Part shown: in pieces, positions 46,992 to 63,748 of the stretch
Layout: every line of letters starts with the position of its first letter
How positions within the stretch are numbered: position 1 is the stretch's first letter
Source of the DNA: Sphingomonas hengshuiensis
GTDB lineage: Bacteria > Pseudomonadota > Alphaproteobacteria > Sphingomonadales > Sphingomonadaceae
Assembly (NCBI RefSeq): GCF_000935025.1
Contig: NZ_CP010836.1
Coordinates: 4,030,001-4,094,000 of the forward strand
Direction: 5' to 3'
Length of the DNA stretch: 64,000 nt
Program-made: the position numbers and the translations under genes
Notes under the pieces: model-generated
What the model saw: the letters and a program-made list of their open reading frames with translations, nothing else
Databases searched by the model: none
What the model was told of the DNA's origin: nothing

Positions 46992-49973
46992 TCAGAACCG
47001 CGCGCGCACCCCGACACGATAGGTGCGGCCCAGCGTGTCGTAGAGCGCGGGATTGACGTCGAGCCCGGTATTGGTTTGCGGCATCGCCTCCGGGTCGTGG
47101 TCGAAGAGATTGTCGACTTTGAAGAAGCTACTGATTTCATTGGTGAAATTCACCGAACCACCGATATCGACATAGAAGGCGCCCTTCATCCTATTACGGT
47201 CGATCGTCGGGTGGTTGCCGGTCGAGACGGGGCAGGCCGAAGTGCAGACGACATATTGGTTGCCGAACACCCCGTCCGAGAACCAGCGCTCCTGGACGTT
47301 GAAGCTGAAGCTGTCGTTGCTGTAGCTCTGGACCGCCAGCCATTTCCAACTGGGCGTGTTGCCCGAATTGGCACCCGCCTGGTCGACCTTGTCGACCCCG
47401 GCGATTCCCGCGTCGACGATGAACTCGCGGACATGCGTGCCGAGCGCGCGGAGCGTGAAGCTGCCCGGCAGGCCCAGCGGACGCTGCCACCGATAGCTCG
47501 CCTCGATGTCGAACCCGCTGGTCTTCCACGAGGCGAGGTTGAACGGCTGGACGTTGATGTAATTGCCGCCCTGCACCGGGCTGTTGAGCACGAAGCCGCC
47601 GCAGAACGCCTGGTTCCCCTCATAGCAGAAGCGCACGATCTGGTCCGCCGACAGCGTCGAAATCACGCCGTCCAGCTTGATGCTGTAATAGTCGAAAGAC
47701 AGGCTGAGCCCCGGCAGCCACGAAGGCTTTGAATAGACGATGCCCAATTCGGTGTTGCGCGCGATTTCGGGCTTCAGATTGGGGTTGCCGACGGTGTTCT
47801 GGAATGCCTGGACTGCGACGTTGTTGAAAGGATCGTTGAAGCTGGGGAGCGTCGTGACGGTCGGCGCGGCGAACAGTTCGGACAGATTCGGCGCGCGGAC
47901 GTCGCGCGACGTGACTGCGCGCAGCCGGATGCCGTCGACCGGCGTGTCCCAGGTGCCGCCGACCTTCCACGCCCAGACGGTGCCCGACGTGCTGTAATGC
48001 GTCACCCGGCCCGCGCCGTTCAAATTGGCACGACCGATCGCGTCGCTGTTGAACAGGGGCAGGTTAAGCTCCAGGAATCCTTCGTAAACATCGTATTTTC
48101 CGGTGCCGTTCTTGTAATTGCCCGCCGCCCAATTGCTGCCCAAAGGTGCGTTGAGCAGCGGATCGGCCGGATAGGCCGCGCTGTTGGGGCTGACGCTCGT
48201 CACCCCGGCGCCATAGGGGTCGCCGGTCACGCGGTAATATTCCTTGCGATACTCGCCGCCGAACGCGACCGACAGCGGCCCCGCCCACAGATTGAGCGGC
48301 TCGCCCGAGAAGTTGAGGCTGGCGACGTCCTGAGTCAGCTTGGTGTGCTGGAACGGGCCGTTTTCGGGCGTGACATAGGCGAGCGCCGCCGCCGAGGGCG
48401 CCATCCCGCCGAAGATGTTGATCGGCTGACACCCCGCCGCGCGCGCCGCGGCATCGGCGCATACGATCGCGCCGTTCAGCGTGATCGCATTGGTCGCGGC
48501 GACATAGCGGTTCTGCAGGACGATCGTGTCGACGTCGATATCGGCGATCGTCGTGCCATGCGCATAATAGGCGTCGTAACGCCAATCCGATCCGCCCACG
48601 CCGAACTTGCCCTTCACGCCGCCGACGAAGCGATACTGACGGCGATCGGTACTGACCTTGGGATCGGGGAAATTGCCGTTGCTCGACCCGAAGTTGAACG
48701 ACGTGATCCCCGCCGATGCGCAGCGATCGCGCACCAGCTGCGGCAGGAACGGGTTGGCGCACTGCACCGTCAGGTTCGGGCGATTATAGCCGGGGCTCGG
48801 CTGGTTGCTCGTCTTCACCTGCGCGATGTTCGCAGTGAAATAGACTTCATTGTCGTCGGCGAAATCATAGCCGATCCGCCCGAAGCCGTTGATCCGCTCC
48901 AGCGCCGATTTGAGCGACGCGCCCGAACCCGGCGCGCCCGAAAGGTCGCCGCCGACGCAGAAGCTGTTGCCCGGATAGCAATTGCTCACCCGGCCATTGC
49001 CCTGCGGCACGCCGCCCGAGCCATAGTTGAAATTATAGGGCGTGCCGTTGACGTCGAAGGCAATGCCCTGGAGCGGGCCGTTGTTGATCAGGCCGTAGCG
49101 CGCATATTGATAGGGCTGGGCGTAATCGCCGACGACGAATTGCGGCAGGCCGTTGTTGGTCTGGCCGGTGTTGAACAAGGTGGTGGCGCGATACCAGTCG
49201 CGCTTGCCCGCCAGATCGGTGCCGAAATCGCCGGGGCCGACGCCGTCCTCATGATCATATTCGGCGCTGGCGATCAGGTGCAGCCGATCGTCGAACAGCG
49301 CCTTGCCCACCGCCGCCTGGACGAGCGCCTGGGCATCGTCGCCATAGGTGGTGATGCCGCCCTGGACATTGGCCTTGAAGCCCGTGAAGCGCGTATCGGT
49401 GATGAAGTTGACCACGCCGCCGACCGCGTCCGAGCCATAGGAGGCGGAGGCGCCGCCGGTGACGACGTCGACGCGCTTGACCAGCAATTGCGGGAACATG
49501 CTGATATCGGGAACGCCGGTCACGTTCGCGCCGACGACGCGCTGGCCGTCGAGCAGCGTCAGCGTGCGGATCGTGCCGAGGCCACGCAGCGAGAAGGAGC
49601 TGAGCCCCTGCGTCCCGCTCGACGTGCTGAACGTGCCGGTCGAGGCACCGGTCGAGCCCTGGAGCGACGGCAGCTGGATCACTGCGTTGAAGATATTGGG
49701 CTGTGCGTTGCGGGCGATTTCCTCTTCGCCGATGATCGTCGTCGGCGTGGGCGCGGTGAACCCGCTCGACAGGATACGCGTGCCGGTGACGATGATCTCA
49801 CCCGCGTCGTCCTGGGCCTCGGGCGCATCGGGGACGGTCTGGGCGACCGGATCGGGCGCGGTCTGGGCAAGGGCCGGGGTGCAGGCGAGCGCGGCGGCGA
49901 GCGCGGCCACGCTGGTAGCGCTATCACGCAGATGCGCCAGCGATCGACGGTCGAATGAAAATGTCCCGATCAT
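46992..49973 (-). CDS. TonB-dependent outer-membrane receptor
   Basis: A 993-residue receptor: signal peptide (about 1-29), plug domain with TonB-box-like EIIVTGTRIL, RGLGTIRTLTLLDGQRV and GGASASYGSDAVGGVVNF, then a beta-barrel ending in RVGVRARF with the terminal Phe needed for barrel assembly. The barrel is rich in Asn, Tyr and Gly, typical of the large sphingomonad/Caulobacter receptors for carbohydrates. GAGGGGGA lies just before the ATG at 49973. It follows the first beta-helix/propeller gene on the same strand, suggesting it imports the product or polymer handled by that protein; the ligand is not known. Confidence 0.92.
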   Translation of the reverse strand: MIGTFSFDRRSLAHLRDSATSVAALAAALACTPALAQTAPDPVAQTVPDAPEAQDDAGEIIVTGTRILSSGFTAPTPTTIIGEEEIARNAQPNIFNAVIQLPSLQGSTGASTGTFSTSSGTQGLSSFSLRGLGTIRTLTLLDGQRVVGANVTGVPDISMFPQLLVKRVDVVTGGASASYGSDAVGGVVNFITDTRFTGFKANVQGGITTYGDDAQALVQAAVGKALFDDRLHLIASAEYDHEDGVGPGDFGTDLAGKRDWYRATTLFNTGQTNNGLPQFVVGDYAQPYQYARYGLINNGPLQGIAFDVNGTPYNFNYGSGGVPQGNGRVSNCYPGNSFCVGGDLSGAPGSGASLKSALERINGFGRIGYDFADDNEVYFTANIAQVKTSNQPSPGYNRPNLTVQCANPFLPQLVRDRCASAGITSFNFGSSNGNFPDPKVSTDRRQYRFVGGVKGKFGVGGSDWRYDAYYAHGTTIADIDVDTIVLQNRYVAATNAITLNGAIVCADAAARAAGCQPINIFGGMAPSAAALAYVTPENGPFQHTKLTQDVASLNFSGEPLNLWAGPLSVAFGGEYRKEYYRVTGDPYGAGVTSVSPNSAAYPADPLLNAPLGSNWAAGNYKNGTGKYDVYEGFLELNLPLFNSDAIGRANLNGAGRVTHYSTSGTVWAWKVGGTWDTPVDGIRLRAVTSRDVRAPNLSELFAAPTVTTLPSFNDPFNNVAVQAFQNTVGNPNLKPEIARNTELGIVYSKPSWLPGLSLSFDYYSIKLDGVISTLSADQIVRFCYEGNQAFCGGFVLNSPVQGGNYINVQPFNLASWKTSGFDIEASYRWQRPLGLPGSFTLRALGTHVREFIVDAGIAGVDKVDQAGANSGNTPSWKWLAVQSYSNDSFSFNVQERWFSDGVFGNQYVVCTSACPVSTGNHPTIDRNRMKGAFYVDIGGSVNFTNEISSFFKVDNLFDHDPEAMPQTNTGLDVNPALYDTLGRTYRVGVRARF

Positions 49974-50049
49974 GATATCCCCCTCTGAAGGTTCTGGCGC
50001 GTGGGACCGAAGCGGCTCCGCGCCTTGTGGGGATGGTCTTACCGGATCG

Positions 50050-50095
50050 CGGGGCGACCGGCATCTACGACCATGGTCGCAAGCCGGTCGCCCCG
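50050..50095 (-). terminator. Cruciform-like hairpin between the beta-helix gene and the receptor
   Basis: CGGGGCGACCGGC (50050-50062) is perfectly complementary to GCCGGTCGCCCCG (50083-50095), and the loop itself contains the palindrome CGACCATGGTCG (50068-50079). It follows the stop of the upstream gene by nine bases. There is no long T-tract. It may attenuate read-through into the receptor, whose start is 77 bases further on. Confidence 0.6.
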
Positions 50096-50103
50096 CCGGG
50101 AGG

Positions 50104-53100
50104 TCAGGGGGTGGCGGCGTAGACCGCGTGGTGGGTGAGGATGAACAGCGTGCGCCCGTCGCGACCGCCGAACAGCAGGTGCAGCGGGCGTTCGGGCACA
50201 TCGATTCGGCCCAGTTCCGCGCCGTCCGCTGCGTGGACGAAGACCTGACCATTGGCGATGTACACGCGCCTGTCCGGCCCGGCGACGACGCTCTCGCCGC
50301 CGCGCGCCGCGAATGGCCTGAGATCGGTCAGGGCGCCGCCGACCCCGAGCAGCGCCGAATAGCTGCGGTTCTCCGAGGCATTGGCGACGTACACCCGCGC
50401 GCCGACGGTGCCGCCGGTCCAGCCATAGGTGTCGAGCGTGTCGGAGAAACGCCAGCCGAGATGATTGTCGGGCCCCTGTTGCCACACGCGATACGCCGGG
50501 AGGACCAGGCTGCCGTCGGGGGAGACATATTCGCGGGGCTTTGGCGCCGCCGCGTCGCGCGCGAACATCTCCGCCAGGGTCGTGAATTGGTCGGTCGCGG
50601 AGTCATATTGGTCGCGGAACTCGCCATTGACCCAGAAGCTGCCGGGGAGCGCGACGCGGGCATTGCGGCGTTCCGACACGGGAGTCGGCGCGATCACCCG
50701 CACGGCGTTCGGCTTGTCCGGCGCGATGCTGTACACGCTGCCCTCTGGCCCGTCCGACGACAGCACGAGCAGGTCGCCCGAGCGATCGACCGCCAGGTTG
50801 ACCGGATCGAGCGGGGCATCGGCGATGGTGGTCAGCCCGCCGGCTTCGGTCCAGCCATGAATGCGGTGCGACAGGCGATCGACGAAATAGAGCCGCCCCG
50901 CCGCATCCACCGCACCCCCGCCCAGCGCCGCGAAGCCGTCCGCCAGCTTGCGCACCGGCGCCAGCGTCGGCGCGGCGGCGGGCGGGGGCGCGTCGGTCAC
51001 GTCGAGCACCGCGAACTCACGCTCGCGCACTTCGCCGCCGCGCGTCACGTCGCGGATCGCATTCGAATAGGGATATTTGCTCGCGCGCAAATAGGTGCCG
51101 CAGCCATTGGCGTCGCAGGTCGAAAAGCCGCTTTCGGCATTCACATGGACATTGCGGAAGCGGATGTCGGTCGAGCCCTCGATCTGCACTGCGACCGGCG
51201 CGGGCTGGAGCGTGCGGGTGACGCGATAGGCGTGGAGATTGGCGAACAGGATGTTGCGCGAATTGCGGATGTCGAACGCGATCGTGCTGCGCCCCTCGCC
51301 CGCTTCCTCCTCGGTCTGCGGCGCTAGGAATTCCCAGTTGCGGACGCGATCCAGCACGATCTCGGCGCGGACATGATGCTCCGCCGACATCTGATAGACG
51401 ATCCCCGGCGTATCGGTATCCGACACCAGCAGCCCCGCCGAGGCATAGGTGTTGGGCGTCCACAGTCCGTTGAAGGTGCCGCCGCCGCCGTCGGTCACCC
51501 ACAGCGAGGGATATTGGCCGTCCCAGCGCTTCTTCGGATCGGCGTCGCTCGTGTGGTTGGCGTTGTACGGATCGAAGCGAGTGCCGTCGTAGAGATTGGT
51601 GCCGTGCCCGCCCTGGAACTTGACGTCGTCGACCAGCGAGCGCGCCCCCGCCCTCCACAACAGCGCCGTCGCGCGCGGATTGACTCCGCCGGTGGCGAGG
51701 CCGAGGCCGGAGACGATCGCATCGCCCCCCTTCGCGCTTTCGATCAGCGCGCGTGCCGAGCCGATCCCGCGAAAGCCAGGGCTGTCGTCGGCCAGCACGA
51801 TCTGGGTCCGGCTGGGGTGGAGGCCGATCAGGACGCTGTCGGGGCGCAGCTTCAGCGTGTCGGTGACGCGGTAGAAGCCGCTGGGGAAATAGACCACGCG
51901 GTGGCTGTCGATCGCGCGCTGGATCGCGGCGGTATCGTCGGTGGCATTGTCGCCCTTGGCACCGAGCGTGCGGACATTGCTCCAGCCGGCCACCGCAGGG
52001 AGCGCGCGGAGTGCGGCGTCGCGGCGTCGGGGCAGCGCCTTGAGCGGGGCGATCGCCATGCGCGTCGCAGTGCTGCCGGGCTGACCGAGGCCGGGCAGGG
52101 TCAGGCCATAGGTGAATTCCTTGACGCGATAGGGCGCCTCCGACCCCGGCACCGCCTTGCCGCTGTCGCGGAAGCGCGCGAAGACCGGGGTGCCCCGCGC
52201 GGTGGCATTGTCGAACCCGATCTGGGTATAGGCATTGCCTTCGTTGCTGATGACGATCCCCGCCTTCGACACATTCTCGAAGCGGACATCCTTGCCCCAC
52301 AGCCAGTCGCCATAGCCCTTGTCGATCTCGATCCCGACCGGCACGTTGCGCAGCACGGTGTTGACCAGGGTCAGCCCCGCCTCATGCTCACGGATCGCGG
52401 CATCGCGCTGGCCGTCGAATTCGGAATCGAGCAGCGTATATTGCCAGGCGGGCGAGGTTTTCTCGGTCAGGATGCCATAGCGTCCGCCGTGGAAGCGCAG
52501 GTCGAAGCCGAGATTGCCGACCTGGTAAATGCCCGCCAGCGCCGACCCCAGCCGGAAATCGATATGGCTGAGATAGCTGTGCTGGCCGGTGTGGAAACGC
52601 ACCGCGGTCGCCGCCGGATTGCCTTCGCCGATCTCGAAATCGAGATTGCTCATCGCCGAATAGAAAGTGCCCGAATTGGCGTCGGCAATGTCGGGGTTGA
52701 ACGGCACGCTGGTCGGCGGGGGGACCGGCACCGGGCCGCGCATCGGCGCGCCGTGGGTGCCGGGGGGCGAGGCGCCGGGCTGGTTGCCGGTGAAGAACAC
52801 CATGCTGCCGACGCCGCGCTGAAACCCCGGAGTCGAGGGCGCGAGCAGCAGCACCGGGCGCGTCCGCCCGACGCCGAACAGCCGCACGCCCGGCCACATA
52901 TACAGCGTGCGGGTGATGCGGTGGCGCCCGGCGGGCAGGAACACGATGCCGCCGCCGGGCCGGGCCGCCGCGGCGTCGATCGCCGCCTGGATCGCGGCGC
53001 TGTCGTCGGCGATGCCGTCGCCGCGCGCCTGCACCGTCACGGCAGCGGGATCGTCGGGGGCGGTCGCGAAGGCGGACACCGACTGCCCCGTCTGCGCAAG

Positions 53101-53166
53101 CGCGCTGCCCAGCGGCAACCCCGCCACGATCAAGGCACTCGCTACTGCGCGCACTATGCTGGCCAT
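50104..53166 (-). CDS. Exported tandem beta-helix (GH55/pectate-lyase-3-like) and propeller fusion, paralogue A
   Basis: A 1020-residue exported protein (signal peptide about 1-28, SALAQ). Two Pectate_lyase_3-type beta-helix modules follow one another: the first starts near 50 (GDGIADDSAAIQAAIDAA, IVFLPAGRHRIT), the second near 398 (GAKGDNATDDTAAIQRAID, VVYFPSGFYRVTDTLKL). Two such modules in tandem are the layout of GH55 rib-cage glucanases. From about 735 there is an SMP-30/gluconolactonase-like beta-propeller (GGAVDAAGRLYFVD, DPVNLAVDRSGDLLVLS, ERPLHLLFGGRDGRTLFIL). The EGP-type catalytic glutamate of lactonases is not seen. It is paralogous to 56745-59750 and its neighbours suggest a polysaccharide substrate. 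GGAGAG precedes the ATG. Confidence 0.85.
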   Translation of the reverse strand: MASIVRAVASALIVAGLPLGSALAQTGQSVSAFATAPDDPAAVTVQARGDGIADDSAAIQAAIDAAAARPGGGIVFLPAGRHRITRTLYMWPGVRLFGVGRTRPVLLLAPSTPGFQRGVGSMVFFTGNQPGASPPGTHGAPMRGPVPVPPPTSVPFNPDIADANSGTFYSAMSNLDFEIGEGNPAATAVRFHTGQHSYLSHIDFRLGSALAGIYQVGNLGFDLRFHGGRYGILTEKTSPAWQYTLLDSEFDGQRDAAIREHEAGLTLVNTVLRNVPVGIEIDKGYGDWLWGKDVRFENVSKAGIVISNEGNAYTQIGFDNATARGTPVFARFRDSGKAVPGSEAPYRVKEFTYGLTLPGLGQPGSTATRMAIAPLKALPRRRDAALRALPAVAGWSNVRTLGAKGDNATDDTAAIQRAIDSHRVVYFPSGFYRVTDTLKLRPDSVLIGLHPSRTQIVLADDSPGFRGIGSARALIESAKGGDAIVSGLGLATGGVNPRATALLWRAGARSLVDDVKFQGGHGTNLYDGTRFDPYNANHTSDADPKKRWDGQYPSLWVTDGGGGTFNGLWTPNTYASAGLLVSDTDTPGIVYQMSAEHHVRAEIVLDRVRNWEFLAPQTEEEAGEGRSTIAFDIRNSRNILFANLHAYRVTRTLQPAPVAVQIEGSTDIRFRNVHVNAESGFSTCDANGCGTYLRASKYPYSNAIRDVTRGGEVREREFAVLDVTDAPPPAAAPTLAPVRKLADGFAALGGGAVDAAGRLYFVDRLSHRIHGWTEAGGLTTIADAPLDPVNLAVDRSGDLLVLSSDGPEGSVYSIAPDKPNAVRVIAPTPVSERRNARVALPGSFWVNGEFRDQYDSATDQFTTLAEMFARDAAAPKPREYVSPDGSLVLPAYRVWQQGPDNHLGWRFSDTLDTYGWTGGTVGARVYVANASENRSYSALLGVGGALTDLRPFAARGGESVVAGPDRRVYIANGQVFVHAADGAELGRIDVPERPLHLLFGGRDGRTLFILTHHAVYAATP

Positions 53167-53340
53167 GTTGCTCTCCACAAGATCCTAACCGCTTCAATTG
53201 ACGTGGATAGCATGGCCGATAGCCAGCCGCAGCCGGCGCGGCGACCGCGACAAAGGTCGCAATGGCCAAGCCCCGCGCGGCCCCCGATACCGTTGTCGGA
53301 ATGCGCGGCGCGACCGTGCGGGGTACAAGAAGGACCGGCA

Positions 53341-53892
53341 GTGGAGTCACTAGCGAATATCGCCGGATTGCCGTCCTGCGCCATCGTCGCCATGGGGGTG
53401 AGCGGGTGCGGCAAGTCGACGTTGGTCGCGCATCTGGCCGAGCGGCTGGGCTGTCCTGCGTTCGAGGGCGATTCCTATCATTCGGAGGCGAGCGTCGCGA
53501 AGATGCGCGCGGGCCAGCCGCTCGAGGACGGCGATCGCTGGCCGTGGCTCGATCGGCTGGGCGCTGCGATCGGGGATGCGGTGCGCGAGCGGGGGATCGC
53601 GGTCGCTGCCTGCTCGGCGCTGAAGCGCAGCTATCGCGCGCGGCTGGAGGCTGCGGCGGGGGTGCCGGTGCGCTTCGTGCTGCTCGACGGCGACCGCGAT
53701 GCAATCGGCGAGCAGATGCGGCGGCGGACGGCGCATTACATGCCGCCGAGCCTGCTCGACAGCCAGTTCGCGGCGCTGGAGCGGCCGGGTGCGGATGAGA
53801 ATGCGCTGGTGCTGCATTGCTATCGCCCGATCGAGGTGCTGGGCGATGCGGCGCTGGCGTGGGTACAGGCGGGGATGGTCGCCGCCCGCTAA
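53341..53892 (+). CDS. gntK: Gluconokinase
   Basis: Phosphorylates gluconate to 6-phosphogluconate in the cytoplasm, feeding the Entner-Doudoroff or pentose phosphate route. The 183-residue P-loop kinase has Walker A GVSGCGKST at 19-27, FEGDSYHSEASVAKMRAGQPLEDGDRWPWL (the gluconate-kinase signature) and the lid AACSALKRSYRARL. A GTG at 53341 with AAGGA upstream is taken as start; an ATG at about 53391 would cut into the first strand. It diverges from paralogue A across 174 bases (which include a TTGACG word at about 53199) and converges on the GntR gene. Confidence 0.92.
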   Translation: MESLANIAGLPSCAIVAMGVSGCGKSTLVAHLAERLGCPAFEGDSYHSEASVAKMRAGQPLEDGDRWPWLDRLGAAIGDAVRERGIAVAACSALKRSYRARLEAAAGVPVRFVLLDGDRDAIGEQMRRRTAHYMPPSLLDSQFAALERPGADENALVLHCYRPIEVLGDAALAWVQAGMVAAR

Positions 53893-53896
53893 GACT

Positions 53897-54036
53897 GTTT
53901 GGAAATGCGCTGTCGCGCATTTGGCGGCGCCGGCCCGCTCCCCCGCCCGGCCACCCGACGGCAGTATTCTAGGGGTGGCCGGGCGGGGGAGCGGGCCGGC
54001 GCCGCCTTAAAATTCGCTCTTTCGCGAATTTTCAAA
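53897..54036. repeat. Large compound palindrome between convergent genes
   Basis: Perfect 34-base arms at 53923-53956 and 53973-54006 enclose a 16-base loop. Each outer flank carries its own hairpin: AAATGCG/CGCATTT at about 53903-53922 and AAAATTCG/CGAATTTT at about 54009-54032. The two flanks are themselves inverted relatives, so the whole 140 bases is one compound inverted repeat. It separates gntK from the convergent GntR gene and may terminate both, but its size suggests a repeat element. Confidence 0.88.
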
Positions 54037-54045
54037 CGCGCCCCC

Positions 54046-54744
54046 TTACGGCATCAGCCGCTTGCGCCCCTGCGACAAATGCCAGCGCATCGCGAGCGCG
54101 GCGCCATCGGCGTCGCGCGCGCGGATCGCGTCGACGATCGCGTCATGCTCGTCCATCATCGCGCCGATGACCTCGGGCGGGCGCGAGCGCGAAATGTCGA
54201 CGCCCGCGCGCAGGATGCGGATGACTTCCTCATGCAGCCGGTCGAACAGCATCACGAACGCAGTGTTGCCGGTCGCCTCGGCGATCGCGCGGTGGAGCAC
54301 CCAATCCTCGTCGTGCGCGGGCGCGCTGGAGAGGAGCGCGGCGCGCAGCGCGGCGAGCGCGGCCTCGATCGCCTCCATCTGGGCATGCGAGCGGCGATGC
54401 GCGGCCAGCCGCGCCGCCTCGGCCTCGAGCACGAAGCGCACTTCATAGGTGCCGAGCGTCGCCGCGAGTCCCTGCATCGGCACGTGCGAGCCGAGCCGTT
54501 CGGAGGGGCGGCGCTTGACGTAAGAGCCCGCGCCGCGCCGCGCTTCGGTGATGCCATCGGCGGCGAGCCTTACCAGCGCCTCGCGGACGATGCTGCGCGA
54601 CATGCCGAAGGTCTCGGCCAGCCGCGCCTCGGACGGGAGCCGGTCGCCGGTGGTCAGCCCGTCCTCGTTGATGATCTGGACGATCGCAGTATAGGCGCGA
54701 TCCGCCAGCCTGCCTTCCTGCACGACGCCCCTCCCGACCGTCAT
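54046..54744 (-). CDS. GntR-family regulator of the FadR/FCD type
   Basis: A 232-residue repressor-type protein: winged helix-turn-helix (about 10-80: DRLPSEARLAETFGMSRSIVREALVRLAADGITEARRGAGSYV) and an all-helical FCD ligand domain (about 95-225) with metal-binding style segments RFVLEAEAARLA, LHRAIAEATGN and DEHDAIVDAIRARD. FCD regulators usually sense small carboxylates. It overlaps the 3' end of the gluconate permease gene by four bases (ATGA), so permease and regulator form one operon, and gluconate or a derivative is the likely effector. Confidence 0.9.
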   Translation of the reverse strand: MTVGRGVVQEGRLADRAYTAIVQIINEDGLTTGDRLPSEARLAETFGMSRSIVREALVRLAADGITEARRGAGSYVKRRPSERLGSHVPMQGLAATLGTYEVRFVLEAEAARLAAHRRSHAQMEAIEAALAALRAALLSSAPAHDEDWVLHRAIAEATGNTAFVMLFDRLHEEVIRILRAGVDISRSRPPEVIGAMMDEHDAIVDAIRARDADGAALAMRWHLSQGRKRLMP

Positions 54745-56081
54745 ACGATGTAGCTAAGCGCCACGACCATGGCGAGCCCGGCGACCGAGATCACCGTCTC
54801 GAGCATCGACCAGGTCCGGAACGTGTCGGCGGTTGTAGTGCCGACATAGCCCTTGACCAGCCAGAAGCCGGGGTCGTTGACATGGCTGAAGAACACCGAT
54901 CCCGCGCCGATCGCGAGCACGACCAGCTCGGGCGAGGCGCCCGATGCCGCGACCACGCCGGGCATCACCCCGACCGCGGTGATCGTCGCGACCGTCGCCG
55001 ATCCGGCGGCAAGGCGGATGCCCACTGCGACCAGCCAGCCGAGCAGCAAGGGCGAGATCGAATAGAGCATCACCACCCGCGCGAGCAGGTCCGACAGCCC
55101 GGCGCTGACCAGCACCTGCTTCAGCGCGCCGCCCGCGCCGATCGCGAGCAGGATCGCGCCCGCCGCGCCCATCGTCTCGAACCACACGGCGTCCTGGATC
55201 GCCGCCTCGCTCAGCCGCCGCCCGAACAGCAGCGGCAGCGCGACGAGATTGGTGATGAGCAGCGCCAGCACCGGGTTGCTGGCCGCCGCCAGCCACGGCG
55301 CCTCGGCCAGCCCCGGCACCAGCTTGCCCAGCTCGCCCGCCGCGATCAGCACGATCGGCAGCAGCACGATGAACAGCGACACCGGGCGCGGTGGCGGCAA
55401 CAGGTCGAGCGCATGGTCGCTCAGCACCGGCTCGGTCAGCTTCACCCCGGGCGTCACGAACCGCGCCAGCACCGGCCCGGCGAGGATCGCGACCGGAATC
55501 GCGATCAATATGCCGTACAGCATCGTCAGCCCCAGGCTGGCGTTCAGCGCCTCGACCGCGAGCAGCGGGCCGGGATGCGGCGGGACCAGCGCATGGACCA
55601 CGCCGAGCCCGGCCAGCGCGGGCATGATCAGCCGCAGCTTGGCGGCGTCGCGGTCGCCGTCGTCGGGCAGCGCCTTGGCAGCGGCGACGACGATCGGCAG
55701 CAGCAGCACCAGCCCGGTTTCGAAGAACAGCGGCAGCCCGATGACGATCGCAATGCCCAGGGTGGCCCAGGGCGCGGCCTTTGGCCCGGTCAGCCGCAGC
55801 GCGCCGGTGGCGAGCGAGGCGGCGGCGCCCGACAGATGGAGCATCGCGCCCAGCGACAGCCCCAGCGCGACGACCAGCCCGGTGCCGCCGACAATGTCGC
55901 CGACGCCCTTCTGCACCGCCTTCGACGTCTCGCCGAGCGGCAGGCCCGCAAAGATGCCGACCGCGAAGGCGCCGCACAACAGCCCGAGAAAGGGGTGGAG
56001 CCGCCCGCGGACGATCAACAGGATCGCCAGCGCGATTCCCGCGACTGCGGCGATCACCAGCCGGATGTCGTCGCCCGTCAT
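54741..56081 (-). CDS. gntP: GntP-family gluconate:H+ symporter
   Basis: Inner-membrane permease of 446 residues with about 12-14 hydrophobic segments. Family signatures include IVIGLPLFFETGLVLLLPIV, PALAGLGVVHALVPPHPGPL, GSATVATITAVGVM and FFSHVNDPGFWLVKGYVGTTTADTFRTWS. GntP members carry gluconate and related hydroxy acids. The ATG at 56081 gives the normal amino end. It is first in the gntP-gntR operon, opposite to the small LuxR-type gene; the 341-base gap holds the dyads described below. Confidence 0.93.
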   Translation of the reverse strand: MTGDDIRLVIAAVAGIALAILLIVRGRLHPFLGLLCGAFAVGIFAGLPLGETSKAVQKGVGDIVGGTGLVVALGLSLGAMLHLSGAAASLATGALRLTGPKAAPWATLGIAIVIGLPLFFETGLVLLLPIVVAAAKALPDDGDRDAAKLRLIMPALAGLGVVHALVPPHPGPLLAVEALNASLGLTMLYGILIAIPVAILAGPVLARFVTPGVKLTEPVLSDHALDLLPPPRPVSLFIVLLPIVLIAAGELGKLVPGLAEAPWLAAASNPVLALLITNLVALPLLFGRRLSEAAIQDAVWFETMGAAGAILLAIGAGGALKQVLVSAGLSDLLARVVMLYSISPLLLGWLVAVGIRLAAGSATVATITAVGVMPGVVAASGASPELVVLAIGAGSVFFSHVNDPGFWLVKGYVGTTTADTFRTWSMLETVISVAGLAMVVALSYIV

Positions 56082-56254
56082 CGCCGGTCGCCCCGCCGCA
56101 CTCCGCGGCCCGTCGTCATCATAGCCATTCGCGCCTCCCCCAAGCACCCGCGCAATCGCGTGGCGGCCCCCATGTTTACTGCGTCCGGAGAAAAGCGATG
56201 CCCCTCAATCGGCACCCTTGTTCCGGCTCGGCGGCGTCTTCGCCTTGTCTTTAT

Positions 56255-56283
56255 CTGTAGGACAGGTTTTTGCAGTTCTGCAA
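56255..56283. promoter_or_regulatory. Two short dyads in the gntP/LuxR-type divergent region
   Basis: CTGTAGGACAG at 56255-56265 and TTGCAGTTCTGCAA at 56270-56283 are both dyads, lying in an unusually AT-rich patch (about 56250-56345) of the 56082-56422 intergenic region. A GGTTGG/CCAACC pair follows at about 56309-56337. Regulators of the GntR family bind dyads of this size, so the 14-base one is a candidate operator for the neighbouring FCD protein. This is inference. Confidence 0.4.
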
Positions 56284-56422
56284 TAAAAAAGGCTTGATTC
56301 AATGTTTGGTTGGGGAACATAACAAAAGCTGTCCAACCGAATCCGGAATAACCGGCCATGGACGCAAGGGTGCCGGCAGGGCGATGCCAGGCGCCGCAGG
56401 CCACGCGCCAGGGAGTCAGGAT

Positions 56423-56692
56423 ATGAAAGGGACCTTCCACGAATCCCGCCAGCCAGAGGCGCCGCGCATCGCGACCGATGCCTCGGGCGCCGCGGTCCAG
56501 CTGACCCCGACCCAGCTCAAGGTGATGCGCGGGGTGGGATCGGGACAGCTCAACAAGCAGATCGCGTTCGACCTGGGCATCGCCGAGGCGACGGTGAAGG
56601 CGCACATGACCGCGCTGATGCGCAAGCTCAATGTGCGCAACCGGACGCAGGTGGCGATCGCGGCACAGTCGCTCTCGCGCCACGCATCCTGA
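56423..56692 (+). CDS. Stand-alone LuxR-type helix-turn-helix protein
   Basis: An 89-residue protein that is almost only a GerE/LuxR DNA-binding domain (about 30-85: QLTPTQLKVMRGVGSGQLNKQIAFDLGIAEATVKAHMTALMRKLNV). There is no receiver or sensor domain and no trace of one in the 340 bases upstream, so it is either a genuine single-domain regulator or a worn-down response regulator. GGAGTCAGG precedes the ATG at 56423. It ends 52 bases before paralogue B and probably controls or is cotranscribed with it. Confidence 0.83.
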   Translation: MKGTFHESRQPEAPRIATDASGAAVQLTPTQLKVMRGVGSGQLNKQIAFDLGIAEATVKAHMTALMRKLNVRNRTQVAIAAQSLSRHAS

Positions 56693-56744
56693 ACGCCCCG
56701 CGCGGGTGCGCGGACCGCTTGCAGCCCGATCCGGGAGACGGACG

Positions 56745-59700
56745 ATGACGACGCGCGCGCTATTCTCGGTGGGGCTGCTCTGGCTGGCCGTGTTGCTGGT
56801 GCCTCTCCCCGCCTTTGCCGGCTCGACCTCGGTCTATCGTACCGCCCCCGCCGATCCCCGCGCGATCACGGTGCACGGCGTCGGCGATGGCCGCGCGGAC
56901 GACAGCGCGGCGATCCAGGCGGCGATCGATGCCGCCGCAGCCGGGGGCAAGGGCGGCGTCGTCTTCCTGCCCCAGGGACGCTATCGGATCAGCCGCACAA
57001 TCTTCGTGCGCTCCGCAGTGCGGGTGTTCGGGATCGGTGCGACGCGCCCGGTGATCGTGCTGGGCGACGATACCCCGGGCTATGGCGCGGGGATCGCGGC
57101 GATGATCGCCTTTACCGGCGAGGACCAGTATCGCGTCGGCAGGGCGCCGGTGCCGCCGCCCACCAGCGTCCCCGCCGATCCGGCGATCTTCGACGCGACC
57201 TCGAGCACTTTCTACTCGGCGCTGTCGAATGTCGATTTCGAGATCGGCCGCGGCAATGCCGGCGCCGTCGCGGTGCGCTTCCGCGTCGCGCAGCATGGGT
57301 TCCTGCGCCATATCGATTTCCATCTGGGGTCGGGGCTCGCCGGCATCTATCAGGCGGGCAACGCGTGCGAAGATCTGCGCTTCTATGGCGGGCGCTACGG
57401 CATCCTGACCGAAAAGACCTCACCCGCCTGGCAATTCACGCTGATCGATTCGGAGTTTGACGGCCAGCGCGACGCCGCGATCCGCGAGCATGAAGTCGAC
57501 CTGACGCTCATCAACGTCGCGATCCGCAACACCCCGATCGGGATCGAGATCGATCGCGGCTATTCGGATTCGCTATGGGGCAAGCAGGTCCGGTTCGAGA
57601 ATGTGTCGAGCGCGGGGGTGGTGATCTCCGAAGAGACCAGCGCCTTTACCCAGATCGGCTTCGACAATGCGGTCGCGACCAACACCCCCGTCTTCGCGCG
57701 CTTCCGCGACAGCGGCAGGACCGTGGCGGGCGCGGGCCGCCACTATCGCGTCACCGATTTCTCGCACGGGCTCACGCTGCCCGGGCTGGGCGCGACCGGC
57801 ACGATTGCGACCGACATGGCGATGGCGCCGCTCGCGCGGATGCCCGCCCGCCCCCGCCCCGCGATCCGCGCGCTGCCGCCGGTGGCCGAATGGGCGGACG
57901 TCCGCGATCTGGGCGTCAAGGGCGATGACGAGACCGACGATACCGCCGCGCTCCAGCGCGCGATCGACACCCGCCGTGTCGTCTATCTGCCGATGGGCCG
58001 CTATCGCCTGACCGACACGCTCAAGCTGCGGCCCGACAGCGTGCTGATCGCGCTGCACCCCAGCCTGACGCACCTCTACCTGGTCGATGACACCCCCGCC
58101 TATCGCGGCGTCGGCGGCGCAAAGGCGCTGCTGGAGAGCGCGCGCGGCGGCGATGCGATCGTCTCGGGCATCGGGCTGTGGACCGGCGGCATCAATCCGC
58201 GCGCCACTGCGCTGTTGTGGCGCGCGGGCGAGGCGTCGATGGTCAACGACGTCAAGATACAGGGCGGCGGCGGCACCGTGCTGACCAAGGGCAGCCCGGT
58301 CGGCTTTGGCGACCCGCGCGCGCGCTTCGACGGGCAATATCCGAGCATTTGGGTGACGGACGGCGGCGGCGGGACCTTTGCCGCGATCTGGTCACCCAAT
58401 ACGCTGGCGTCGGCGGGCTTCCACGTCTCGAACACCAGGACGCCGGGGCATGTCTATGAACTGTCCGCCGAGCATCATTACCGCGCCGAAATCGTGCTGG
58501 ACGGCGTCGAGAATTGGGAGTTCCTCGCGCCGCAGACCGAGCAGGAGGTCCGCGACGGCGTGAACGCGATCTCGACCGAATTCCGCAATTCGCGCAACAT
58601 CCTGTTTGCGAACTATCATGGCTATCGCGTCACGCGCTCGATCAAGCCGATGGATGCGGCGGTGAAGCTGTTCAATTCCAGCGACATCCGCTTCCGCAAT
58701 GTCCATGTGAACGCCGAGAGCGGCTTTGCGAGCTGCGATACGAAGGGCTGCGGCACCTATCTGCGCGCGAGCAAGTTCCCGTTCGAGAATGCGATAAAGG
58801 ACGTGACGCGCGGGCAGGAAGTGCGCGAGCGCGAGTTCGCCCGGCTCGACATTCCCGCCATGCCCGCGTCCGCATCGCCGGTGCCGGTGTCGCCGGGGGT
58901 GACGCAGCTGGCCGACGGATTCTATTCGATCGCGGGTGGCGCAGTGGATGCCAAGGGCAAGCTCTATTTCATCGACCGCTTCTTCCAGCGCATCCATGGC
59001 TGGGCGGCGGGCGAGGGACTGACGATCGTGGCGGACGCACCGCTCGACCCGGTCAACCTCGCGGTCGATCGCTCGGGGCGGCTGATGGTGCTGTCGTCGG
59101 CGGGGCGCGACGCGACGGTGTACAGCATCGATCCCGCCGAGCCCGACGATGTCCGCGTGATCGCGCCGACGCCCGTGAAGCCGCGCGCGCGGGCGCTGAC
59201 CGCGCTGCCGGTCAATGTCTGGGCCAATGGCGAATTCGCCGACCGGATCGATCCGGTGACCTATCAGTACCCACCGCTGGCAGATTTCTTCGCGCGCGCG
59301 ATGGCGACGCCGAAGCCGCAGGAATATGTGTCACCCGACGGCTCGCTGGTGCTGCCGGCGTTCCGTGTGTGGAACCAGGGGCCGGACGATCACCAGGGCT
59401 GGCGCTGGTCGCACAGCCTCGACGCCTATGGGCTGGTCACCGCGCGACCGGGCGAGCGGCTGTGGCTGACCAACGCGTCGGAGAACCGCAGCTATAGCGG
59501 GCTGCTGGGTCCGGACGGCACGCTGACCGACCTCAGGATCGCCGCCGATCGCGGGGGCGAGAGCGTCGCGCGCGATGCCGCCGGCACCCTCTATGTCGCG
59601 AACGGGCAGGTGTTCGTCTATGCCGCCGACGGCACGCCGATCCGCCGGATCGACATGCCCGAACGCCCGCTTCAGCTCATCATCGGCGGGGCCGATGGGC

Positions 59701-59750
59701 GGACATTGTTCATCCTCGCGCATCATGCGCTGTACGCGGTAGGTATCTAG
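56745..59750 (+). CDS. Exported tandem beta-helix and propeller fusion, paralogue B
   Basis: A 1001-residue exported protein (signal peptide about 1-24, AFAG) colinear with paralogue A throughout. The first beta-helix module begins near 45 (VGDGRADDSAAIQAAIDAAA, VVFLPQGRYRIS), the second near 390 (GVKGDDETDDTAALQRAID, VVYLPMGRYRLTDTLKL), and the SMP-30-like propeller spans about 720-1001 (GGAVDAKGKLYFID, DPVNLAVDRSGRLMVLS, IIGGADGRTLFIL). Long blocks such as IRFRNVHVNAESGF are identical in A and B, so they share a common ancestor. GGAGA lies before the ATG. It points toward the lig genes, which converge on it. Confidence 0.85.
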   Translation: MTTRALFSVGLLWLAVLLVPLPAFAGSTSVYRTAPADPRAITVHGVGDGRADDSAAIQAAIDAAAAGGKGGVVFLPQGRYRISRTIFVRSAVRVFGIGATRPVIVLGDDTPGYGAGIAAMIAFTGEDQYRVGRAPVPPPTSVPADPAIFDATSSTFYSALSNVDFEIGRGNAGAVAVRFRVAQHGFLRHIDFHLGSGLAGIYQAGNACEDLRFYGGRYGILTEKTSPAWQFTLIDSEFDGQRDAAIREHEVDLTLINVAIRNTPIGIEIDRGYSDSLWGKQVRFENVSSAGVVISEETSAFTQIGFDNAVATNTPVFARFRDSGRTVAGAGRHYRVTDFSHGLTLPGLGATGTIATDMAMAPLARMPARPRPAIRALPPVAEWADVRDLGVKGDDETDDTAALQRAIDTRRVVYLPMGRYRLTDTLKLRPDSVLIALHPSLTHLYLVDDTPAYRGVGGAKALLESARGGDAIVSGIGLWTGGINPRATALLWRAGEASMVNDVKIQGGGGTVLTKGSPVGFGDPRARFDGQYPSIWVTDGGGGTFAAIWSPNTLASAGFHVSNTRTPGHVYELSAEHHYRAEIVLDGVENWEFLAPQTEQEVRDGVNAISTEFRNSRNILFANYHGYRVTRSIKPMDAAVKLFNSSDIRFRNVHVNAESGFASCDTKGCGTYLRASKFPFENAIKDVTRGQEVREREFARLDIPAMPASASPVPVSPGVTQLADGFYSIAGGAVDAKGKLYFIDRFFQRIHGWAAGEGLTIVADAPLDPVNLAVDRSGRLMVLSSAGRDATVYSIDPAEPDDVRVIAPTPVKPRARALTALPVNVWANGEFADRIDPVTYQYPPLADFFARAMATPKPQEYVSPDGSLVLPAFRVWNQGPDDHQGWRWSHSLDAYGLVTARPGERLWLTNASENRSYSGLLGPDGTLTDLRIAADRGGESVARDAAGTLYVANGQVFVYAADGTPIRRIDMPERPLQLIIGGADGRTLFILAHHALYAVGI

Positions 59751-59833: not shown

Positions 59834-61771
<1,938 letters not shown>

Positions 61772-61779
<8 letters not shown>

Positions 61780-62446
61780 AGGTGAGCCCCAGCGCCGCCA
61801 GCTTGCCGCGCATGTCATAAATGTCGAGCCCCAGCTCGCCCGCCGCCAGCCGCTTGCGCTTCGATTCCTCGGCGGCCTCGCGCGCCTGTGCCTTGGCGAG
61901 CACCGCCTCGGCATCGGCGCGGGGGACGACGCAGACGCCGTCGTCATCGGCGATGATCACGTCGCCCGGCTGGATCGCGGCGCCTGCGCACACGATCGGC
62001 ACGTTGACCGACCCGAGCGTCGCCTTGACCGTCCCTTGCGCGAACACCGCCTTCGACCAGACGGGGAAGCCCATCTGGGTCAGGTCGCGCACGTCGCGGA
62101 CGCCCGCATCGATCACCAGCCCGCGACACCCGCGCGCCATCGCCGAGGTGGCGAGCAGGTCGCCGAAATAGCCGTCCTCGCACGGGCTGGTCGGGGCCAG
62201 CACCAATATGTCGCCCGCGCCAAGCTGCTCGATCGCGACATGGACCATCCAATTGTCGCCGGGAGGGGCGGAGATCGTCACCGCCGACCCGGCGATGCGC
62301 GCACCCGGATAGATCGGGCGCATATGGCTGGCGAGCAGCCCGGTGCGGCCCTGCGCCTCATGCACCGTCGCGACGCCGGCGGCGGCGAGCCCGTCGATAA
62401 CCAAAGCCTCGGCGCGCTGAATGTTGCGGACGACACGACCTGCCAT
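61772..62446 (-). CDS. ligK: 4-carboxy-4-hydroxy-2-oxoadipate aldolase
   Basis: Class II pyruvate aldolase of the RraA-like HMG/CHA family, splitting 4-carboxy-4-hydroxy-2-oxoadipate to pyruvate and oxaloacetate. The 224-residue protein has [60 protein letters not shown] and the active-site segment [13 protein letters not shown] (Arg and Asp for pyruvate and metal). AGGAG precedes the ATG at 62446. First gene of the lig operon, divergent from a LysR-type gene. Confidence 0.95.
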
Positions 62447-62542: not shown

Positions 62543-63748
62543 ATGACCGCCCCCTTCGACCTCAATCTGCGCCATCTGCGCGCGCTGTCCGCCGTGGTCG
62601 AACAGGGCAGCCTGAGCGCGGCGGCACAGGCGGTCAGCCTGTCGCAGCCCGCGCTGACGCAGGGGCTGCGCAAGCTGGAGCGGCAATTGGGCACCGCGCT
62701 GTTCGATCGCCGCTCGGACGGCGTCGCGCCCACCCCCGCGGGGCTGTGCATGGCGCAGCGCAGCGCCAGCGCCTTTGCGCATCTGGCGCACGCCACGCGC
62801 GGCGGCGGGCGGGGCACGCGGGGGTTTGCCCGGCCCGAGCAACTGATGACCGCGACGCAGCTCGATGCTTTTCTAAGGCTCGCCGATGCGGGCAGCTTTG
62901 CCGCGGCGGCGGCGGCGAGCGGATTGTCGCAGCCCGCGCTCCACCGCGCGGTGCGCGACCTCGAGCAGATTTGCGCGACTCCGCTGGCCGAGCGGCGCGG
63001 GCGCGGCGTCATGCTGACGGCGGCGGGGCGCAAGGTCGCGCGCGGCATCCGGCTGGCGGCGGGCGAGATCGCGGCGGGGATCGTCGAGGCGGGCGACGGC
63101 GCCGATAGCGGGCGGATCGCGATCGGCGCGATGCCGCTGTCGCGCGCGCTGATCCTGCCCCGCGCGATCGCGGCGTTCAGCAGGGGCACGCCGCGCGCGG
63201 TGCTCGACGTGGTCGAGGGGTCGTGGCGCGAACTGGTCGAGCCGCTGTACGACGGCGTTATCGACCTGATGATCGGCGCGTTGCGCGACGAGGCGCCGCC
63301 GGGGCTGGAGCAGCGCGCGCTGTTCGACGATCGGCTGACGGTGATCGGGCGCAGCGGGCATCCGCTTGCCGGCGTCGCGGACCCGGGGCTCGATGCGCTG
63401 GCGCAGCATGGCTGGATCGTCGGTTCGGCGGGCACGCCGCTGCGCGCGCAATGGGAGGCGATGTTCGCGAGGCAACCGCTGCCGCCGGCGCCGATCGAAT
63501 GCGGATCGGTGATGGTGATTCGCGGCGTGCTGCGCGACAGCGACCTGCTGACGCTCTTGTCGCCCGATCAGGTTTCGCTGGAAATCGACAGCGGGATGCT
63601 GGCGGCGATCGGGCGTCCGCTGGCGCATGGCGTGCGCACGATCGGCATCACCACGCGCGCCGGATGGCGCCCCACGGCGGCGGCGGCACGGCTCATCGCG
63701 CTGATCGAGGCGGCAGCGGACAGAGGCAGAGTTCAGGAAATCCAATAG
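62543..63748 (+). CDS. LysR-family regulator with two N-terminal DNA-binding domains
   Basis: A 401-residue regulator, about 100 longer than usual LysR proteins. Residues about 6-75 are a first winged helix-turn-helix ([38 protein letters not shown]); residues about 102-170 are a second, diverged copy ([37 protein letters not shown]). The rest (about 190-395) is one substrate-binding domain ([21 protein letters not shown]). Position opposite ligK suggests it controls the 4,5-cleavage genes in response to an intermediate. A binding dyad lies just upstream. Confidence 0.9.

Follow-up and report, generated by a model that had tools for sequence, protein, structure and literature searches.

Pseudomonas has a direct oxidative route for glucose in the periplasm; like the systems built around the Zymomonas glucose-fructose oxidoreductase (GFOR) and the Caulobacter aldose-aldose oxidoreductase (AAOR), it combines sugar oxidation outside the cytoplasm with import and phosphorylation of gluconate. 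The polysaccharide utilization loci (PULs) of Bacteroides are TonB-linked loci for carbohydrate utilization. Likewise, the CUT (carbohydrate utilization) systems of Xanthomonas (PMC1790865) join a TonB receptor to an exported glycosidase and a sugar-specific regulator. Classical gnt operons, known from Corynebacterium glutamicum, Streptomyces coelicolor and Bacillus subtilis, share gntK, gntP, an FCD-type regulator and a FadR-like operator (PMC2230225 and PMC5425828, in excerpt). A locus of Sphingomonas hengshuiensis has features in common with each of these systems. It lies in a window of 64,000 nucleotides (contig NZ_CP010836.1, C1:4030001-4094000) from a genome of 5.2 Mb; coordinates below are those of the window unless a genomic position is stated.

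The locus is bracketed by two paralogues, here called A (50104..53166/53178, minus strand) and B (56745..59750, plus strand). A first-pass annotation had described them as exported proteins of about 1000 residues each, flanking gntK, a FadR-type regulator and gntP, with a TonB receptor after A; all of these are present at or near the positions it gave. A and B are 64% identical, fall on separate supported branches in a quick tree, and carry the domain order that had been claimed for them: Pect-lyase_RHGA_epim (PF12708; 124.2 bits in two stretches of A, 111.4 bits in B) followed by SGL (PF08450; 35.1 and 33.2 bits, against a cut-off of 26.3). Their N-termini, judged by eye, appear Sec-like and hence of exported type. 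Between them lie gntK, for gluconokinase (53365/53392..53892, plus strand; TIGR01313, 158.7 bits, above its cut-off of 113.75), and gntP, for a gluconate:H+ symporter (54741..56081/56147, minus strand, with a codon-model start at 56081; TIGR00791, 343.2 bits, above its cut-off of 292.75; PF02447, 357.7 bits). Both products pass subfamily-level NCBIfam models named for gluconate and fail the stricter equivalog models. The regulator (54046..54744, minus strand) contains both a GntR helix-turn-helix (HTH; PF00392, 61.6 bits) and an FCD domain (PF07729, 87.6 bits), which places it in the FadR subfamily. The TonB-dependent outer-membrane receptor (46992..~49910, minus strand) contains both plug (PF07715, 61.1 bits) and barrel (PF00593, 100.9 bits); its start is uncertain, and the open reading frame (ORF) extends to 50252. 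The LuxR-type protein announced before B (56423..56692, plus strand) does have a GerE domain (PF00196, 67.6 bits), but is only a stand-alone HTH of 89 residues. ORFs were taken from a codon model, and the antisense ORFs of this GC-rich DNA were set aside.

The explanation of the whole that we consider probable, if narrowly so, is a TonB-linked glycan-utilization locus that feeds a gluconate route. The TonB receptor would bind or import a beta-glucan-like glycan; the exported A and B proteins, as inverting glycosidases of the glycoside hydrolase 55 (GH55) type, would release glucose or a similar hexose; and a separate enzyme would oxidize the released sugar at C1 to a lactone outside the cytoplasm. 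That enzyme could be a GFOR-like oxidoreductase in most genomes of the genus that carry A/B, and perhaps a pyrroloquinoline quinone (PQQ) dehydrogenase in the window's genome. The lactone would be opened by a lactonase or spontaneously, after which GntP would import the gluconate and GntK would phosphorylate it to 6-phosphogluconate. A joint pathway of glycan cleavage and gluconate uptake had been drawn in the first-pass annotation; it is strengthened by the conservation of the locus, by its predicted operators, and by a replacement locus in a relative. That annotation contained neither the two operator families nor the GFOR link nor the replacement locus.

Conservation was surveyed in 201 genomes of the genus, with A matched at E <= 0.001. 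Matches occur in up to 121 genomes, weak ones included; the 150 listed A/B homologues fall in 84 genomes, and the linkage counts are lower bounds. Of the 201 genomes, 66 have a gntP orthologue (at least 63% identity), and in at least 57 of these it has a listed A/B homologue no more than 12 kb away. The distant gntP paralogues (below 50%) provide an internal control: in none of 50 genomes do they have such a neighbor. (Not counted were the last nine rows of the gntP search: fragments of split copies, together with a single weaker paralogue, almost full-length, in genome G138.) The joint pathway would fail if A/B homologues were as a rule remote from gluconate genes, and this linkage speaks against such remoteness.

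For gene content, 81 sources were examined: the window, 40 named loci, and 40 chosen stretches, including many solitary copies and three stretches with gntP and no A/B. Genes were called by the codon model and clustered by BLAST; 72 sources contain A/B, and removal of four redundant ones left 68 loci. At least 50 of the 68 have the same TonB receptor cluster, and at least 47 have gntK, 43 the FCD regulator, 29 gntP, 29 the LuxR gene, 13 an alpha/beta esterase and 11 a GFOR-like gene, these counts being lower bounds because of contig ends and limited flanks. The module also is found in Caulobacter, Sphingobium, Novosphingobium and Hephaestia. The TonB receptor, gntK, the FadR-type regulator, gntP, the short LuxR gene and A/B therefore form a recurring module in Sphingomonadales and Caulobacterales; because it recurs in many species and beyond the genus, with orientations that vary, the arrangement is more than chance. 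On an Asticcacaulis plasmid, TonB receptor, gntK, A/B and gntP follow one another on one strand; the adjacent regulator is of LacI type, and the stretch contains no FCD gene.

Large plasmids from Sphingomonas, Sphingobium and Asticcacaulis (NZ_CP155749.1, NZ_CP081002.1, NZ_CP110112.1 and NZ_AP029026.1) also carry A/B homologues, which points to possible movement of the locus between replicons; three plasmid records annotate A/B as "glycosyl hydrolase family 28-related protein". At L074 (G018:C1:1662000-1680000) the A homologue is apparently broken: only residues 11-694 are matched, and a C-terminal-like part lies in a separate ORF of 344 residues. Around this and other solitary A copies (L070, L069, L071, L072) are found a PF10282 lactonase, a carboxylesterase, a cupin, DUF969/DUF979, and a gene resembling subclass B3 metallo-beta-lactamase.

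The intergenic regions of the locus contain two predicted operator families. When spaced palindromes were sought without supervision, CGACC-NN-GGTCG came up in 28 of 143 core intergenic regions but in none of 241 others. With redundancy removed, exact half-sites are present in 34 of 130 regions 5' of A/B, the TonB receptor or gntK, as opposed to 0 of 406; this excess, 0.26, compares with a maximum of 0.069 over 200 label permutations, in a test whose promoter classes were defined after the palindrome had been seen. A matrix (CGACC-WW-GGTCG) then was built from 39 sites outside the window, with a threshold of at least 11 as our own choice, and its matches are in-sample except in the window. It matches all 39 divergent A/B-gntK regions, all six gntK-TonB receptor regions, and 25 of 37 TonB receptor promoters; 11 of 46 promoters of A/B alone and one of six A/B-gntP regions also match. 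Matches are absent from the gntP/luxR (0/14), FCD/luxR (0/13) and FCD (0/16) promoters and from 97 convergent regions, and one was found in 289 non-core regions, meaning those with no flanking gene in a named cluster. The exact sequence CGACCWWGGTCG is shared by 18/39 A/B-gntK and 10/36 TonB-receptor promoters and by 0/288 non-core promoters.

The two top matrix scores in the window fall at TACGACCATGGTCGCA (50064..50083; 28.5), 5' of the TonB receptor, and at CGACAAAGGTCG (53244..53263; one mismatch; 20.3), between the divergent A and gntK; the third, 12.4, lies inside a coding region. Genome-wide, there are two places with RCGACCWWGGTCGY, one of them in the window, and one place with a reversed control pattern. 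The second RCGACCWWGGTCGY place (genomic position 3900681) was rejected as an operator: it sits 18 bases inside a coding region, and the upstream neighbor overlaps that region. The pattern NGCGACCNNGGTCGCN occurs at four places in the genome and at none in the window. One-mismatch palindromes are not enriched in the window by itself (11 found, 8.19 expected), and the operator case therefore rests on position and comparison.

The gntP promoter carries a different predicted site. The gntP/luxR region contains CTGTAGGACAG (56255..56265), a putative site for the FCD regulator, and a second conserved element, TGTCCAAC (56330..56337), each the only match in the window. Comparison of luxR promoters identified both; in this in-sample count, YTGTNNGACAR is present in 14/14 gntP/luxR, 11/13 FCD/luxR and 2/288 non-core promoters, and TGTCCAAC in 13/14, 12/13 and 1/288, respectively. 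The Asticcacaulis stretch, which lacks FCD and LuxR genes, has neither exact motif. Counted by hand, CTGTAGGACAG differs at two positions from TNGTNNNACNA, the FadR-family consensus cited for the gluconate-responsive GntR1/2 proteins of C. glutamicum (PMC2230225, in excerpt). We infer that the FadR-type regulator acts at the gntP/luxR promoter, probably sensing gluconate as inducer, and that the palindrome of the A/gntK and TonB-receptor promoters would serve a second factor, for which the short LuxR-type protein is a possible candidate.

What might A and B do? An AlphaFold model of A by itself (mean pLDDT 88.7, pTM 0.89) has a signal-like N-terminus, two tandem right-handed beta-helices (residues ~30-725) that form a GH55-type rib cage, and an SMP-30-type propeller (~735-1020); residues are numbered from the Met at 53166, and domain limits were set by eye. 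For A, the fold proposed in the first-pass annotation is borne out. In a Foldseek search of the PDB, GH55 enzymes occupy ranks 1-5 and 9, with target template-modelling (TM) scores of 0.60-0.69, and the propeller matches mouse SMP30 (4gn7) and two gluconolactonases (3e5z, 3dr2). A phage tailspike or adhesin identity was tried and rejected, since tailspikes score only 0.30-0.32, far below the GH55 matches. GH55 beta-1,3-glucanases (PcLam55A, 3eqn; CtLam55, 5m5z; MnLam55A, 8jhh; SacteLam55A, 4pew) have, like A, a tandem beta-helix rib cage, a general-acid Glu and a Glu-His pair; unlike them, A/B have an extra C-terminal propeller, and A is only 16-19% identical to the fungal enzymes (Foldseek).

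Sequence profiles agree. With a profile of 57 A/B homologues, one of them an Acidobacteriaceae protein, the first structures found are GH55 enzymes (5m5z, E 4e-23; 3eqn, 1e-16; 8jhh, 3e-11); the N-terminal half by itself reaches a GH55 structure at E 0.02 only. In MnLam55A, the general acid is Glu614, and Glu591 and His592 lie in subsite -1 (PMC10637969, in excerpt). Glu591-His592 and Glu614 align with E596-H597 and E619 of A, within a putative catalytic segment, E596-H597-H598 ... Q617-T618-E619 (51310..51381, minus strand), and a C-terminal-half profile from 25 of the 57 rows reproduces the Glu/His/Glu alignment. The SEHH...QTE of PcLam55A aligns with the same segment, although that piece alone is weak (2.4 bits). 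All 57 homologues have E596, H597, H598, Q617, T618, E619, E621, W556, W569, F168 and Q195. In the MnLam55A alignment, W556 faces Trp554 and D559 (Asp in 37/57) faces Asp557, with Trp552 unaligned; Q195, which faces a Gln in CtLam55 and PcLam55A, probably corresponds to Gln172, and F168 may, as a guess, correspond to Phe143. A and B thus resemble active GH55-type inverting glycosidases. Exo-type cleavage, as first suggested, is plausible because the GH55 catalytic glutamates are conserved.

Clues to the origin of the gluconate come from neighboring genes in relatives. A linked Gfo/Idh/MocA gene (L070) matches AAOR (5a02) best, at 467 bits and E 3e-139, and Zymomonas GFOR (1ofg) at 356 bits and E 2e-105. 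Several linked GFOR-like proteins have twin-arginine-like N-termini by eye; Caulobacter AAOR has a twin-arginine translocation (TAT) signal, and its physiological role was called unclear (PMC4628093, in excerpt). GFOR copies of at least 54% identity are present in 108 of the 201 genomes: 78 of the 84 with listed A/B homologues and 30 of the 117 others (which include two, G088 and G199, with strong A/B matches outside the listed ones). Linkage was counted by identity class: among copies of at least 70%, 23 of 53 are no more than 12 kb from A/B or a gntP orthologue; among those of 54-69%, 19 of 56 lie beside a distant gntP paralogue and one beside A/B; below 54%, none of 39 is linked. Four of the 19 paralogue-side loci were examined (as BLAST clusters): two have GFOR-GH3-gntP-SGL gluconolactonase as consecutive genes, and two have GFOR-gntP-SGL. 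Separate gluconolactonase genes with the EGP motif (112 bits) occur in 4/68 A/B loci.

Nine gntP orthologues have no listed A/B homologue nearby, and three of these loci (L085, L086 and L087) were examined. In L087 the places of A and the TonB receptor are taken by a GH3 gene and a gene for an SGL gluconolactonase, divergent from gntK, with the same gntK/FCD/gntP genes, a one-mismatch palindrome and an FCD-type site. This gene set speaks for a single functional chain that runs from glucosidase through lactonase to gluconate import. At L086, a GFOR gene is found at a distance of a few kb.

Does the propeller of A/B open lactones? The SMP-30/gluconolactonase family (PF08450; 3e5z, 3dr2, 4gn7) shares its fold, and we take the Glu-Asn-Asp of 3e5z to be the metal ligands of that family. 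Unlike family members, A/B have the propeller fused to GH55-type helices and lack the canonical ligand set: the EGP-motif Glu is replaced by Ser, Ala or Gly (in a weak piece, 14.1 bits), the Asn position is mostly Tyr or His (Tyr 16, His 5, Asn 4 in 25 rows), and the Asp is Glu in 25/25. Comparing the propeller profile to a true gluconolactonase by hhalign gave an uninformative result (probability 3.5%). Because the canonical metal positions are changed, lactone opening by the A/B propeller, which the first-pass annotation had proposed, appears doubtful, and a propeller lactonase was rejected as the main claim. A paper on an Asaia "gluconolaconase" (PMC12502724, in excerpt) was set aside as having no bearing on the locus.

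These changed positions bear on another account, in which the glycan is already oxidized, with aldonate or aldonolactone ends such as might be left by a lytic polysaccharide monooxygenase (LPMO); A/B would cleave it, the propeller would open the lactone, and gluconate would be imported. The co-location of GH55-type helices and an SGL-type propeller with gluconate genes in one locus fits this account, as does the ability of a GH3 and SGL pair to replace A and the receptor. Against it stand the changed metal positions of the propeller and the GFOR-like oxidoreductases linked in some relatives, which can supply lactone from an unoxidized glycan; no LPMO family was seen among 30 Pfam-scanned proteins, a sample with no dedicated LPMO search. 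We consider this account unlikely. The oxidized or aldonate-ended substrate of the first-pass annotation lacks support, and the GFOR/gluconolactonase linkage fits oxidation after cleavage at least equally well.

Several results weigh against a glycan-utilization locus that feeds a gluconate route. Within A/B, the adjusting Tyr617 of MnLam55A is not kept (the A622 position is Ala in 19, Val in 27, Gly in 9, Thr in 1 and Arg in 1 of the 57 rows); the catalytic Ser203 could not be placed, with N218 of A perhaps its counterpart; and the CtLam55 alignment conflicts on the aromatic block, where W569 (57/57) faces a Trp equated with Trp552. With the Tyr lost, the Ser unplaced and the block in conflict, the substrate is perhaps not beta-1,3-glucan, and A/B might be inactive. 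As one conserved feature is missing and activity is a prediction, A/B are not filed as GH55 members. They might even be non-catalytic glycan-binding or cell-surface proteins, with the gluconate genes adjacent for joint regulation only; the lost Tyr, the changed metal positions and the presence of beta-helices in adhesins and tailspikes (at lower Foldseek ranks) all are compatible with such a role. It is difficult to reconcile with the invariance of Glu596, Glu619 and His597 in 57/57 rows, the Acidobacteriaceae protein among them, and with adhesin and tailspike matches so far below those to GH55 enzymes, and we regard it as quite improbable.

The remaining contrary points concern linkage and oxidation. 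Of the 68 A/B loci, 39 have no gntP in the examined stretch, and six (L055-L057 and L062-L064, from unclassified Alphaproteobacteria bins and one Acidobacteriaceae) have neither gntK nor gntP within six genes, several of them being short contigs. L085, with its A/B-less gntP, has no gntK, GFOR or gluconolactonase clusters. GFOR is unlinked to A/B or gntP in 30/53 copies of at least 70%, 36/56 of 54-69% and 39/39 below 54%, and the Fisher p of 3e-23 for GFOR-A/B co-occurrence ignores kinship. Moreover, Caulobacter AAOR forms gluconate from glucose plus fructose more than 100-fold less effectively than Zymomonas GFOR (PMC4628093, in excerpt). The window's genome is itself among six listed A/B genomes without a GFOR of at least 54%, having two homologues of 49-50%. 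It does encode a PQQ membrane dehydrogenase (941.9 bits, above cut-off), and no PqqE above cut-off was found there. With no close GFOR and no such PqqE, the oxidation step is weakest in this very genome. Elsewhere in it (G000:C1:3199049-3202727, L123), a PQQ-type dehydrogenase gene (TIGR03074, 426 bits, below cut-off) has as a near neighbor a gene whose N-terminal sequence is SGL gluconolactonase-like; this pair is a possible alternative aldonate source.

The AAOR comparison also raises the question of which aldonate is taken up. With xylose alone, AAOR surpasses Zymomonas GFOR in efficiency (PMC4628093, in excerpt), and GntP/GntK-type proteins might handle xylonate, galactonate or another aldonic acid. 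GH51- and GH43-type neighbors are in keeping with this, and one GFOR copy (L131, G055:C1:1876000-1890000) sits, by eye, amid xylose isomerase-, FGGY kinase-, GH43- and LacI-like genes, company that would fit the xylose activity of AAOR. Set against this are GntK and GntP, which exceed the gluconate-named subfamily cut-offs (though not those of equivalog models), and the characterized GH55 enzymes, whose substrates are glucans (PMC10637969, in excerpt); an aldonate other than gluconate thus seems to us a poor prospect. The carbohydrate-active enzymes that neighbor A/B loci are a mixture of GH1, GH3, GH28, GH30, GH31, GH42-like, GH43 and GH51-like families, and for this reason the substrate could not be fixed.

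To the right of B, the minus strand carries what is likely a protocatechuate 4,5-cleavage operon (59834-62404), with an amidohydrolase, a 4-oxalomesaconate tautomerase (NF033377, 536 bits, above cut-off) and one more ORF; beside it is a PcaQ-like LysR protein (62543-63748, plus strand) of 401 residues with two HTH_1 stretches. This aromatic-catabolism operon looks like a unit separate from the gluconate locus.

Together, these results give the widespread A/B homologues a testable role and join glycan breakdown to a gluconate route; they also offer a function for GFOR/AAOR-type oxidoreductases. In its most explicit form, the model is a hydrolyse-oxidise-import system: divergent GH55-type cleavage, a propeller that holds or handles aldonolactone, extracytoplasmic oxidation of GFOR type, and import of gluconate, never of sugar. 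That full combination is tentative, and more doubtful than not in our estimation; if true, it would define a type of glycan-utilization locus with aldonate as the imported product, and a physiological role for GFOR/AAOR.

No description of such a locus was found in the literature searched, whose coverage leaves out most subscription journals. The closest systems differ from it in distinct ways. Unlike the classical gnt operons, the window locus adds exported glycosidase-like proteins, a TonB receptor and a second predicted operator. Unlike the Pseudomonas, GFOR and AAOR routes, it would tie oxidation, in one locus, to a TonB receptor and a protein resembling glycosidases, and would work as a TonB-linked glycan-utilization locus joined to a periplasmic oxidative route. 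The conserved pairing of glycan-cleaving-type proteins with genes for gluconate uptake suggests that sphingomonads and their Caulobacter-group relatives take up glycan sugar as gluconate. In CUT systems and PULs the product enters as a sugar; here, it would enter as an aldonate, through GntP.

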